A stretch of 52,016 nt of DNA from Gammaproteobacteria bacterium (lineage in GTDB: Bacteria; Gemmatimonadota; Gemmatimonadetes; Longimicrobiales; Gaopeijiaceae), in NCBI GenBank assembly GCA_009840525.1, contig VXNP01000126.1:12830-64845 (forward strand), written 5' to 3'. Below the pieces are notes generated by a model. That model searched no databases and was not told the origin of the DNA. It worked only from the letters and a program-made list of their open reading frames with translations. Positions 42,010-46,498 of this stretch are shown in pieces (positions within the stretch are counted from its first letter, which is position 1; each line of letters begins with the position of its first letter). A program made the translations under genes and the position numbers.

Positions 42010-42417
42010 ATGCCGAGTGAATCAGCCGAATCAAGACGGGAACCGAATCGATTCACCCACCGCGAACTGGACATCATGAGCGTCCTCTGGCGCCGGGGCT
42101 CGGGGACGGTGGCGGAGGTCCGGGACGTCCTCGGGGAGGATGTCGGCTATACCACCGTTCTCAAGATGCTGCAGATCCTGGAGGGCAAGAACGCGGTTCG
42201 CCATGAGAAGGAAGGACGGGCCCACCGCTACTACCCGCTGGTCGAATCCGCCGACGCAGGCGGCAGTGCCCTCAAGCGGGTCATGAACAAGATCTTCCAC
42301 GGTTCCGCGGAGCTGCTGCTGGCGACGCTGGTCGAGAACCGGGAATTCAGTGACGAGGAGATCGAGCGCATGCGGTCCATCCTGGATCGTGCCCAGGAGA
42401 AGGAGGACGAAAGATGA
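42010..42417 (+). CDS. BlaI/MecI/CopY family transcriptional repressor
   Basis: 135 residues with the family's winged helix: THRELDIMSVLWRRGSGTVAEV, VGYTTVLKMLQILEGKNAV (recognition helix) and VRHEKEGRAHRYYPLV (wing), about residues 14-80. A C-terminal helical dimerisation part follows (VMNKIFHGSAELLLATLVENREFS). In the classic system a membrane M56 peptidase senses a signal and inactivates this repressor by cleavage. Here the M56 gene follows with an ATGA overlap. The promoter holds two copies of a palindrome also found before the gene at 29284. Confidence 0.95.
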   Translation: MPSESAESRREPNRFTHRELDIMSVLWRRGSGTVAEVRDVLGEDVGYTTVLKMLQILEGKNAVRHEKEGRAHRYYPLVESADAGGSALKRVMNKIFHGSAELLLATLVENREFSDEEIERMRSILDRAQEKEDER

Positions 42418-43820
42418 TCTTCTGGTGGATGGGCTACGCGGCCGGAATCGGTGTCCTGCTGGCGGTCGGCGGCTGGGCCGGCGAGCGACTCTGCGAGACG
42501 ATGGGCTGGCCGCGCCGGTTCGCGTGGATCGCGGCCCTCACGCTGGCGGTGGTGATCCCTCTCGCCGCACAGCCGCCGGCGCCGGTGCTGGACGTGTCGG
42601 CCGCCGCGCCATCGCCCATCACATCGGTGGTGCAGGCAGCGGATCCGGCGGTCCCTGCGATCTCCGGGACGGGTTGGGAGCGGGCGGCGATCGTCGCCTG
42701 GGGCGCCGCCTCGCTGGCCACACTCCTGGTGTTCGGGGCAATCCTGGGCCTCATGAACCACTCGCGCCGCCGCTGGCCCCGGCGGTCGGTGGACGGCGAG
42801 GACGTCTACGTCTCGGAGGGCTTCGGCCCGGCGCTGATCGGCGTGACGCGTCCCTCCGTGGTCATCCCCGACTGGCTCTTGTGCGCGGGTGACCGGGCCG
42901 GCCGCGTGGCGATCCTGCACGAACGCGAGCACGCCCGCGCGGGTGACCACCTGACCCTCCTCTACGGCGCAGTCATCGCTGCGCTTTTCCCCTGGAGTCC
43001 GGCGGTCTGGTGGATGGTCCGCAACCTGCGCGGCGCCGTCGAGATCGACTGCGACCGGCGCGTCATCGCCTCCGGCATCCCGGCGGACGACTACGGGAAG
43101 CTGCTGCTCGCGATCGGCGTGGGACGGCACCGGCGATGGGTGTTGACACCCGCCCTTCTCGAATCCCGACATTCCCTCGAGCGGAGACTGAAGATCATGG
43201 CTGCCAGGAAGATGAAGTGGAGCCCGCTGCGCGCGGTGACGCTGGCCGGTCTGACCGTGGCGGCCCTGGTAGTCGCGTGTGACACCAACGCCCCCACCGC
43301 TCTCGACGACGCGCTCCTCGACGTGCTGGCGAACCCGGAGGCGGAGGTCAGCGCAGACGGATCCCTCACCCCGCAGGCCCGGGCCGAGCAGGTCGAGGCC
43401 GCCCGGCAGGCCGCAGCCGAGCGGCTTGGAAGCTACAACGTTCGACCCCGGCCCCTGATCTTCATCGACGGTATGGAGGTGTCGAATTCGAACCTCTCGC
43501 TTGAGGCCGGCCAATACACAGTCAAGACCGACCCGTACTCGCCACTAACTTCGCTGAACCCCGACGACATCGAACGGATCGAGGTCATCAAGGGATCGGC
43601 TGCAACCGACTTGTTCGGCGACTGGGCCGAGAACGGCGTCATTCAGATCTTCACCAAGGAGGCCGACGCTTCTGACCCCGCAGAACCGTCGGCGAGCAGT
43701 TCACCGCCCGAGGAAGGCGGTGACGTGGACGAAGTCAAGCCGATCGACATCGCCTACTATGTACAGTTGGGGTCTCCCGCCTTCGTCCTCCGCACAAACA
43801 AGCTGTCGCTCGTGCCCTAG
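42414..43820 (+). CDS. M56 (BlaR1-like) metallopeptidase fused to lipobox and TonB-plug-like domain
   Basis: 468 residues. Membrane helices lie at about 4-20, 36-52, 92-113 and 181-198. The zinc motif is His169-E-x-x-His173 in LHEREHARAGD, with Glu210 in AVEIDCDRR as the likely third ligand. A last hydrophobic segment, AVTLAGLTVAALVVAC (about 274-289), ends in a lipobox-like Cys. Beyond it no beta-lactam sensor domain is present. Instead, after a linker, RPLIFIDGMEV and SLNPDDIERIEVIKGSAATD plus NGVIQIFTK (about 347-415) match the plug domain of SusC/TonB receptors. The tail beyond 415 is disordered. It may sense or hand over an envelope signal to the BlaI protein. Confidence 0.88.
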   Translation: MIFWWMGYAAGIGVLLAVGGWAGERLCETMGWPRRFAWIAALTLAVVIPLAAQPPAPVLDVSAAAPSPITSVVQAADPAVPAISGTGWERAAIVAWGAASLATLLVFGAILGLMNHSRRRWPRRSVDGEDVYVSEGFGPALIGVTRPSVVIPDWLLCAGDRAGRVAILHEREHARAGDHLTLLYGAVIAALFPWSPAVWWMVRNLRGAVEIDCDRRVIASGIPADDYGKLLLAIGVGRHRRWVLTPALLESRHSLERRLKIMAARKMKWSPLRAVTLAGLTVAALVVACDTNAPTALDDALLDVLANPEAEVSADGSLTPQARAEQVEAARQAAAERLGSYNVRPRPLIFIDGMEVSNSNLSLEAGQYTVKTDPYSPLTSLNPDDIERIEVIKGSAATDLFGDWAENGVIQIFTKEADASDPAEPSASSSPPEEGGDVDEVKPIDIAYYVQLGSPAFVLRTNKLSLVP

Positions 43821-43865
43821 GCGGCATCGCCTGCGGCGCTGACGAGCACTATTGTGTAGCCGTTC

Positions 43866-43959
43866 GGCTCGCCCACCGGCGGCGGACGGCGCAGGCCGCG
43901 AGTGGTGTCGGACGCCCTCATCGAATCAGGACACGCTCTCGAACCGGAGATTCAAAGTC
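43866..43959 (+). pseudogene. decayed remnant of the M56 C-terminal region
   Basis: This stretch aligns with 43118-43197 of the M56 gene, for example GCCCTCATCGAATCAGG against GCCCTTCTCGAATCCCG. In the M56-equivalent frame it encodes VVSDALIESGHALEP, matching WVLTPALLESRHSLER in the parent with one codon lost. A one-base insertion in CTCGAACCGGAG (parent CTCGAGCGGAG) then breaks the frame before the start of the next gene. It marks the left part of a tandem duplication. Confidence 0.7.
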
Positions 43960-44355
43960 ATGGGCGGAAGGAAGATGAATCGGACCCCGCTTCGCGGGTT
44001 GACCCTCGCCGGCCTGACCCTGACGGCGGTGGTCATGGCCTGCGACACCGGAGCGCCCACCGCCCTCGATGACGCGCTTCTCGACGCGCTGGCGGACCCC
44101 GAGGCAGCGGTCAACGCGGACGGGGCCGACAATCCGGGAGCACTTCAAATCAGGGGCGCACTCGGAGACGGCGCCCCGCTGGTCTTCGTCGACGGCGTCG
44201 AGCTCGAGACGGGCAGTGACGCGCTCAGCTCCCTGAACCCCGACGACATCGAATCCATCGAGGTCATCAAGGGAGAAGCGGCCGCAGACCTCTACGGCGA
44301 TCGCGCCGCGAACGGCGTCATCCGGATCCTGACGATCGAGTCCCCGGGCGGCTGA
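43960..44355 (+). CDS. stand-alone plug-domain lipoprotein derived from the M56 tail
   Basis: 131 residues from the ATG at 43960 (GGAG nine bases upstream), or 126 from the ATG at 43975 behind GGAAGGAAG. The sequence is a close copy of the end of the M56 protein: NRTPLRGLTLAGLTLTAVVMAC works as a proper lipoprotein signal when split at AGL, then DTGAPTALDDALLDALADPE, a shorter linker, APLVFVDGVELETG and LNPDDIESIEVIKGEAAADL with NGVIRILT. The plug core is conserved while the linker has diverged, so the copy appears under selection. A GTG at 43852 would extend it through the decayed remnant and is less likely. Confidence 0.8.
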   Translation: MGGRKMNRTPLRGLTLAGLTLTAVVMACDTGAPTALDDALLDALADPEAAVNADGADNPGALQIRGALGDGAPLVFVDGVELETGSDALSSLNPDDIESIEVIKGEAAADLYGDRAANGVIRILTIESPGG

Positions 44356-44413
44356 ACCCGGGAACCGTCGCTGAGCGAGGCGACGCCGTCAGGCGACGCC
44401 AGCTCTTTCCGCC

Positions 44414-46459
44414 CTAACGGTCCTGCGTCACCGGCGTCTTGTGCGTCCCCCACTTCTCGAACCACTTGCGCAGGTATAGCTGCGTCCGCAGGAAGTTCGA
44501 GGGCCGCGAGCTGGTCCCGTGCCACTCCTCCTGGAACCGGATCATGACCGTCGGCACGCCCACGTACTGCAGCGCCTGGTAGAACTCCTCGGTCTGGCCC
44601 ATGGGGGTGCGCAGGTCCATCTCGCCGGTCAGGAGCATGGTCGGCGTAGTCACGTTGCCGACGTAGAAGATGGATGAGCGGTCGATCCACTCCGCCGGAT
44701 CCTCCCAGAAGGGCTTCTCGAAGGTGCGCGTGTAGCTGATGGCGTCCGAGGTGCCCATCGCGGACATCCAGTTGACGATGGGGCAGTTGGCGGATGCCGC
44801 CGTGAAGCGGTCGGTGTTGCCCACGATGTAGCTGGTCAGGATGCCGCCGCCCGAGCAGCCGTAGACGAAGAGGTTGTTCTCGTCCACGTAGCCGCGCCCG
44901 AGCATCTCGTCGACGCCGGCCATCAGGTCCGGGAAGTCGGCCCCGGGATAGTCGTGGTTGATGGCGTTGGCGAACTCGGTGCCGTAGCCGGTGCTGCCGC
45001 GCGGGTTGGTGTAGAGCACCACGTAGTCGTTGGCGGCGTGTTCCTGGAAGGCGAAGTTGAAGCCGCCGTTGTACATGCTGTGCGGACCGCCATGGATGAC
45101 CAGCATCATGGGGTAGATGCGGGACGGGTCGAAGTCGGGCGGCTTTACGATCCATCCCTGGATGCGGAAGTCGTCCTCCGAGTCGTACCAGATCTCCTCG
45201 ACTTCACCCAGGTCGACGTACGCCAGCACGTCCGCGTTCACGTCGGTGAGGCGCCGGGTTTCGTCCGGGCTGTCGAGGCCGAAGCGGTAAACGTCGCCCG
45301 GCTCGTGCGCGCTGGAAACGACCCCCACGCCGACACCATCATCCGAAAACGACGACAGGCCGAAGAGGTGCTCGCCGGAGGTAAGCTGCGTCACCCCGCC
45401 ATCGACCGACACGAAGTGAAGCTGCGCGTAGCCGTCCCTGCGCACGGTGAAGTAGAGGCCGCTTCCGTCGGGTGCCCACATCATTCCGCCGACCTGCCGG
45501 TCGTAATCCCCGGAGATCACGCGCGAGCCGGAGCCGTCCCGGTTCATCAGGTGGATCCTCTGGTTGCGGTATGTGTCGCGGTGGGCATCGATGCCGGTAT
45601 AGGCGATGAGCGAGCCGTCGGGTGAAGGAACCGGACCCCCGTCGGGGCCACGTCTGTCGGTAAGCTGCCGGATGTCGCCACTCGCCACGGCGACCGCGTA
45701 GATCTCCGACTCCTGCCAATGCTCGGGACGGTCCCAGTCTTCCTCCCTGTATGAGGTGAAGTAGATCTCGCTGCCATCGGGGCTCCACTGGATGCCGGAA
45801 TGGTTCCAGTCGCCGTCGGTCAGTTGGCGCGCGGTGCCGCCCTCGGCCGGGACCACGAAGACATGGGTCCAGCCGGTGTCGACGTAGCCCTGCCGGTCGC
45901 GCTTGTAGCCGGCCCGCTCCACCACCTTGGGTTCGCGCACCCACTGGGCACCCTCCGGGCGGCGCGGAAGCTCGACGCCGGCGAAGTCGGCCCGGTCGGC
46001 CACCCGGCTGGTGAAGGCGATCCACTCTCCGTCGGGCGACCACTGCGGCCCCGAGGGCCCGTTCTCTAGGCGCGTGATCTGGCTGACCGCGCCTTCGTCG
46101 TCCATCCATCGGACGAAGAGCTGGGAGCCGCTGGGCTCGCCCCGCGCGGTGAAGAGAATGCGGGTACCGTCGGGCGACCAGCGGGCGCCGCTGCCGTCGA
46201 GCAGGTGACGGGCGCGGGAGCCGTCGGCGTTCATGATCCACAGCGACGACTCCCGGCGGTCGGCCTGCTTGTCCACCCAGCCCCGCGTGTAGACGATGCG
46301 CTCTCCGTCAGGGGAAATGCGCGGATCGGACACGCTCTCGATGTCCAGGTAGTGCGTGAGCGAGAGCCGCTCCTGGGCTGCCGCGGGCGCGGTGGCGGAC
46401 AGGACGGCGATGGCTGCCAGGGCGACTGCAATCCGGGTGATGGTGCGTGAACGTCTCAT
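44414..46459 (-). CDS. S9 family peptidase (dipeptidyl aminopeptidase type)
   Basis: 681 residues from the ATG at 46459, with GGAGG eight bases upstream; a GTG-type extension at 46474 lies on the ribosome binding site. The signal peptide ends near PAAAQE. The propeller (about 40-410) has many S-P-D-G blades, and the hydrolase domain follows. The nucleophile is Ser near residue 536 in VYGCSGGGILTSY, with Asp in GEMDLRTPMGQ and His in EEWHGTSSRPSN, so the triad is complete. It is predicted to cleave peptides in the periplasm and is convergent with the plug-domain lipoprotein. Confidence 0.93.
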   Translation of the reverse strand: MRRSRTITRIAVALAAIAVLSATAPAAAQERLSLTHYLDIESVSDPRISPDGERIVYTRGWVDKQADRRESSLWIMNADGSRARHLLDGSGARWSPDGTRILFTARGEPSGSQLFVRWMDDEGAVSQITRLENGPSGPQWSPDGEWIAFTSRVADRADFAGVELPRRPEGAQWVREPKVVERAGYKRDRQGYVDTGWTHVFVVPAEGGTARQLTDGDWNHSGIQWSPDGSEIYFTSYREEDWDRPEHWQESEIYAVAVASGDIRQLTDRRGPDGGPVPSPDGSLIAYTGIDAHRDTYRNQRIHLMNRDGSGSRVISGDYDRQVGGMMWAPDGSGLYFTVRRDGYAQLHFVSVDGGVTQLTSGEHLFGLSSFSDDGVGVGVVSSAHEPGDVYRFGLDSPDETRRLTDVNADVLAYVDLGEVEEIWYDSEDDFRIQGWIVKPPDFDPSRIYPMMLVIHGGPHSMYNGGFNFAFQEHAANDYVVLYTNPRGSTGYGTEFANAINHDYPGADFPDLMAGVDEMLGRGYVDENNLFVYGCSGGGILTSYIVGNTDRFTAASANCPIVNWMSAMGTSDAISYTRTFEKPFWEDPAEWIDRSSIFYVGNVTTPTMLLTGEMDLRTPMGQTEEFYQALQYVGVPTVMIRFQEEWHGTSSRPSNFLRTQLYLRKWFEKWGTHKTPVTQDR

Positions 46460-46498
46460 CAGATGCTCCTCCACTTCCGTTTACTCACTTCGTTGCAT

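Follow-up and report, generated by a model that had tools for sequence, protein, structure and literature searches.

A small open reading frame with a TonB-plug-like domain lies directly behind a BlaR1-like M56 metalloprotease gene in the genome of a member of the Gemmatimonadota, and this raises the question of where the small gene came from and what the protease gene itself encodes. The analysed stretch of DNA (the window) comprises 52,016 nucleotides of contig VXNP01000126.1 (positions 12,830 to 64,845); its home assembly has 4.0 Mb and is 98% complete, and the nearest named relatives of the source genome are Gemmatimonadetes metagenome genomes. Pfam searches across the locus gave Penicillinase_R, then Peptidase_M56 together with Plug, and then Plug alone (Table 1). 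The start of the M56 gene overlaps the stop of the blaI-like gene (ATGA), and the two genes adjoin in every congener whose contig extends that far. A prolyl-oligopeptidase-like S9 gene (44414-46474, minus strand) is convergent with the small gene, and on the G007 contig the 3' end of this gene also follows the M56 tail, in antisense.

Table 1. Features of the M56 locus, with positions in the window and the basis of each assignment.
Feature	Position	Strand	Basis
blaI-like repressor gene	42010..42417	+	PF03965 (Penicillinase_R), E 6e-29
Parent: BlaR1-like M56 metalloprotease with C-terminal TonB-plug-like sensor domain, 468 aa	42414..43820	+	PF05569, E 1e-16; PF07715, E 6e-7
Internal Shine-Dalgarno-like GGAG in the parent	43183..43186	+	Codons Arg257-Arg258 (CGG AGA)
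Proposed nested in-frame cistron, start Met262, 207 aa, with lipoprotein signal and plug-like sensor	43197..43820	+	In relatives, codon usage, SD and open mRNA point to this Met; translation inferred
Parental lipobox cysteine Cys289 (LVVAC), end of last TM helix	43278..43280	+	Invariant in 35 aligned plug-bearing M56 proteins; predicted helix 271-290
Degenerating non-coding remnant of the M56 sequence (from about codon 216), where the duplicated segment begins	43821..43945	+	Divergence; match to the parent from the first base past the M56 stop
GGAG ahead of the copy as its ribosome-binding site, derived from M56 codons	43946..43949	+	CGGAGA hexamer with zero substitutions in 9 genomes
Duplicate: free-standing plug-domain lipoprotein (predicted), 131 aa	43960..44355	+	PF07715, E 2e-14; dN/dS 0.39 among 9 congeners
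Lipobox cysteine Cys28 of the copy (VVMAC)	44041..44043	+	No variation across an alignment of 36 tails, fused and free
Plug core of the copy	44176..44340	+	Model pLDDT about 75-91 from residue 71; Foldseek plug-domain matches
Residual homology to the parental C-terminal extension, beyond the copy's stop	44356..44376	+	Within the 148-bp blastn match

Positions 43821-44376 repeat the M56 gene, from about codon 216 onward, in head-to-tail orientation. The initial annotation had claimed that the tail of this gene is repeated, and indeed 192 of 257 positions are identical between 43821-44420 and the M56 gene (75%, E 5e-44, blastn), as are 111 of 148 in the plug core (75%, E 7e-23, blastn), while the two protein products share 50% identity (E 2e-42, blastp). 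The left boundary, however, had been placed at 43866 and codon 235, whereas the homology begins at 43821, directly after the M56 stop, and pairs with parental position 43060; the additional stretch 43821-43866 matches parental 43060-43105 at 24 of 46 positions on the same diagonal (shuffle P 0.0003). When the copies were aligned to their own parents, the homology ran from the first base past the parental stop in 10 of 10 cases. A lost codon and a one-base frameshift had been reported for the leftmost part of the copy, instead of which the blastn alignment shows two one-base insertions; this relic is still in frame in the congeners G003, G005, G006 and G009. At the right end, the parental C-terminal extension has been lost from the copy, and weak homology to it is traceable beyond the copy's stop as far as about 44376. 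The signals noticed from 43960 onward were all found again, namely GGAG 10 nt before the ATG, the lipobox VVMAC and the PF07715 plug core, and the N-terminus conforms to the PS51257-type lipoprotein pattern (n-region, hydrophobic stretch and lipobox at 15-35 aa), with the cysteine as the predicted site of lipid attachment. As had been proposed, part of the M56 gene has been duplicated in tandem, and the duplicated tail encodes a separate protein that is predicted to be lipidated.

We then examined the parental protein as a receptor. The HExxH motif and the downstream Glu/Asp motif are present, with H169, E170, H173, E210 and D214 invariant in 35 relatives, and the best Foldseek matches in the PDB are the BlaR1 entries 8ext, 8exs, 8exp and 8exq. 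In the structure model, a helix spans residues 271-290 with Cys289 at its outer end. A domain search after this last helix returned only Plug matches, and a penicillin-binding sensor domain was absent. The tails of both copy and parent scored above the PF07715 gathering cut-off of 23.9 (54.5 and 30.4 bits, respectively), and Foldseek matched the copy's plug core best to the plugs of SusC/RagA transporters (E 1.4e-3 or worse). Neither Pfam nor the structure model gave an outer-membrane beta-barrel in the 131-aa copy, which is thus not a TonB-dependent transporter.

To place the parental tail in its family, M56 genes were gathered from up to 196 related genomes, mostly metagenome assemblies; eight proteins, all containing the Cys, went into the profile used for sampling, in which one column in 308 adds little bias. 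A PS51257-type lipobox was found at the end of the last transmembrane (TM) helix in 100 of 108 proteins of the BlaI-associated subfamily, including 58 of 58 plug-bearing M56 proteins, and 82 have Asp or Glu directly after the lipobox cysteine. At other places in the M56 domain, a lipobox followed by Asp or Glu was seen in only 1 of 108. The Ala-Cys pair is invariant in 35 aligned proteins, down to about 31% identity. Counted from the Met ahead of the helix, all proteins but one have a Met-to-Cys length of 25-32 residues, nearly always 25-29; the n-region mostly has a net charge of +3 or +4, and the Met-to-Cys segment is a predicted lipoprotein signal of textbook form. The parental tail thus looks like a lipoprotein module in its own right, as the initial annotation had suspected. 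Among about 30 M56 proteins from Bacteroidota and related groups, four have a Cys in a setting that resembles a lipobox after the last helix, and no clear Shine-Dalgarno (SD) sequence accompanies it. Such cysteines were seen outside Gemmatimonadota in L317 (Fodinibius), L321, L325 and L326, and the Fodinibius protein also has a plug-like stretch. A search for M56 relatives on plasmids gave no match.

The same subfamily carries signals that suggest translation initiation inside the M56 coding sequence. A conserved LERRxxxM motif lies just upstream of the last helix, and its arginines match Arg293-Arg294 of BlaR1 by spacing, the double mutation of which severely diminishes BlaR1 activity (PMC9834060). 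The two amino acids are therefore under functional constraint, whereas the choice of codons need not be. Arg258 is nevertheless encoded by AGA or AGG (AGR) in 39 of 44 non-redundant representatives (<60% identity), against 3-18% at other conserved Arg columns, and in 15 of 17 representatives below 40% identity (P 1e-11). The codon of the preceding Arg is NGG in 90 of 97, and the resulting GGAG stands 10 nt before the ATG in 65 genes and 7 nt in 19 genes. Glu256 is GAA in 70%, against 12-30% at other Glu columns; in distant M56 genes, this column is GAG in 22 of 23. Hybridisation to the anti-SD sequence reaches -8.1 kcal/mol, compared with -3.4 kcal/mol for synonymous shuffles (z -2.40 ± 0.23), and z is -0.05 at 293 other internal Met codons. 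Native M56 starts served as a poor positive control for SD strength, because their assignment is approximate. Furthermore, the mRNA folds less strongly than its synonymous shuffles around this Met alone, from -6 to +12 codons, with a peak z of +0.93 ± 0.16; within -6 to +6 codons z is +0.75 to +0.93, whereas distant M56 genes give 0.05-0.26 and no such peak. Synonymous divergence among congeners is lowest at codons 251-262 (0.095, against 0.18-0.30 elsewhere). An SD sequence, a start codon and mRNA opened beyond coding needs, the marks of a gene within a gene, thus coincide at the internal site. A Gemmatimonas record (L370) has the same arrangement of GGAG, ATG and Cys as the window's parent, and the conserved internal Met is also where the free-standing tails of G061 and of the window's genus begin.

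The coincidence of SD and lipobox has exceptions, in that about one-tenth of the lipobox members have no SD and, of the eight subfamily members that lack a lipobox, five retain SD and ATG. Conservation of the Met was by itself rejected as evidence for a start, since Bacteroidota M56 proteins often have Met there without a lipobox. Rare-codon pausing was likewise rejected as the sole cause of the AGR codons: CGA is nearly as rare, yet it occurs in 1 of 103 at this position, and the codon before it is NGG in 90 of 97. A distant class of M56 genes, mostly without this Met or the lipobox, has AGR at the same codon in 17 of 27, with a weak SD signal (z -0.71 ± 0.25), so that part of the codon bias must have another cause, and the argument from ribosome binding is weakened to that extent. 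In this class, AGA or AGG at the second Arg of LExR was seen in L163, L189, L341, L343, L366 and others, and ATG, GTG or TTG often stands two codons on without good SD spacing.

We consider it reasonably probable that the M56 gene harbours a nested gene, whose internal start yields a free lipoprotein sensor, and that the duplication copied this ready-made cistron. The cistron would consist of an SD sequence within the obligatory Glu-Arg-Arg codons, the ATG, a basic n-region, the hydrophobic helix, the lipobox and the sensor. It is also conceivable, though we regard this as unlikely, that only full-length M56 is made, that signal peptidase II cuts the last helix at the lipobox, and that the SD-like codons merely pause ribosomes before helix insertion. 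This would be the lipoprotein counterpart of sensor shedding in BlaR1, where SpsB cuts after Gly331, just behind the last TM helix, and releases the sensor (PMC9834060); the lipobox occupies the equivalent place in the structure model, and the AGR preference of the distant class is also in keeping with cleavage alone. However, cleavage alone predicts neither weakly folded mRNA before and after the Met nor an SD spacing suited to initiation, nor a GAA preference confined to the lipobox class, nor free copies that start at exactly that Met with a frozen SD.

The history of the copy also bears on how the signal peptide arose. A copy-type plug is present in 10 of 10 congeners, and in nine of them it is a separate gene directly behind the M56 gene, the same arrangement as in the window. 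G005 has two copies behind M56; there, 4735-5181 of L142 (G005:C303) is a second, more diverged tail behind the first, giving a triplication of the module. In L144 (G007:C74, 2750-3490, minus strand), an M56 gene with the parent-type lipobox segment continues into a copy-type plug; the locus lies at the edge of its contig, and the join may reflect recombination or crossover across the tandem repeats, or an assembly artefact. Phylogeny was inferred with FastTree. The best matches outside the genus are fused M56-plug genes of at most 47% identity. Among nine copies, dN/dS (Nei-Gojobori) is 0.39 overall, 0.41 in the plug and 0.28 in the segment after the cysteine; it is 0.41 among the parents. 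Parent-copy plug identity is 0.648 within genomes and 0.646 between genomes, so that parent and copy have followed separate paths from a time before the genus diversified; these identities gave no sign of gene conversion or concerted evolution. The region upstream of the copy's start has a pairwise p of 0.25 and many indels in nine genomes, near the 0.215 of third codon positions, and the only frozen parts of the relic are the CGGAGA hexamer and the ATG, without substitutions among the nine.

The initial annotation had read the locus as a visible intermediate of gene birth, in which a former membrane segment has become a signal peptide. The broken upstream relic, with states that differ between species, would fit a recent duplicate in transition, but we judge this very improbable: every congener with an intact locus has the copy, which is under purifying selection, and its plug is no more similar to its own parent than to those of other genomes. 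Constraint on the ORF, SD and ATG across the genus instead marks the copy as an established gene that inherited its ribosome-binding site from M56 coding sequence. The supposed conversion of the helix is probably wrong as well, since the ribosome-binding site, ATG, basic n-region and lipobox are already in the parent and predate the duplication; their presence in the parent and in relatives without a copy suggests that the duplication probably moved a functional nested cistron. That the copy is a pseudogene or spurious ORF, as the frameshifts and indels in the left 125 bp might suggest, is scarcely credible and was rejected on selection and conservation, because the damage lies upstream of the start, and nine genomes keep the ORF, its SD and its ATG intact and under constraint.

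Free tails also occur outside the window's genus. Separate tail genes stand beside M56 arrays in G061 and G034, and the free tail of G061 has GGAGG and ATG at the same place. In L150 (G061:C132, 1786-7749) and L225 (G034:C1), tandem M56-plug arrays with extra free tails were observed, several ORFs of these arrays having two plug domains, and L225 includes a frameshifted M56. The counterpart of a free tail in G058 is fused to M56 in its congener G029. Predicted plug lipoproteins that align with these tails are encoded in G031 and G035, where no M56 was found at E 1e-8. Either fusion or fission may account for the free tails outside the genus. On balance, though with somewhat less assurance than for the nested gene itself, we favour the view that BlaR1-like protease genes across Gemmatimonadota encode a receptor and, through a conserved internal start, a free lipoprotein sensor, which would act as a lipid-anchored decoy or partner and would repeatedly have become a separate gene.

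On this proposal, the M56 protein is a BlaI-linked, BlaR1-like receptor composed of a cytoplasmic zinc protease, a last TM helix and a periplasmic TonB-plug-like sensor, and the outside sensor would control the protease, which would cleave BlaI by analogy with BlaR1. Initiation at the internal ATG would yield the sensor alone as a lipoprotein. By the E. coli rule, the Asp or Glu at +2 suggests that the free sensor would stay in the inner membrane, next to the receptor. There it may form pairs with the sensor of the receptor itself, or compete against it, and so tune BlaI cleavage, and the tandem duplication of the 3' part of M56 would have given the genus a detached, diverged version of the sensor with its own gene. 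If this is true, a widespread branch of the well-known BlaR1/MecR1 receptor family also makes its sensor as a detached lipoprotein, a receptor could be tuned by its own sensor, and duplication of a gene part already working as a nested cistron would be a route to new genes. Our literature search found no paper joining BlaR1 with a lipobox or lipoprotein signal peptidase, and none joining M56 with internal translation.

Finally, we compared the locus with known systems. It shares with BlaR1/MecR1 and BlaI/MecI the blaI-M56 gene pair, an identical HExxH-to-ExxxD spacing (41 residues), the Arg-Arg after the autocleavage loop, and a last TM helix followed by an outside sensor. It differs from them in having a TonB-plug-like domain in place of the penicillin-binding sensor, and an internal SD and ATG ahead of the last helix; furthermore, the BlaR1 sensor is released by a signal peptidase (PMC9834060), whereas the release site here reads as a type II lipobox. 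With SusC/RagA-type TonB-dependent transporters it has the plug in common, since both tails are matched by PF07715 and by SusC plug domains of solved structure; however, here there is no beta-barrel or transporter, and the plug belongs to a receptor and to a small predicted lipoprotein. The proposed separate production of a C-terminal domain from the same gene resembles the Rpn toxins, where RpnS binds and inhibits its full-length protein (PMC10327210). Cas11, internally started within cas8 or cas10d and reported for type I-B and I-D systems, is a further parallel to the proposed nested product. Both Rpn/RpnS and Cas11 are cytoplasmic, whereas the internal product proposed here would be an exported, lipid-anchored sensor.
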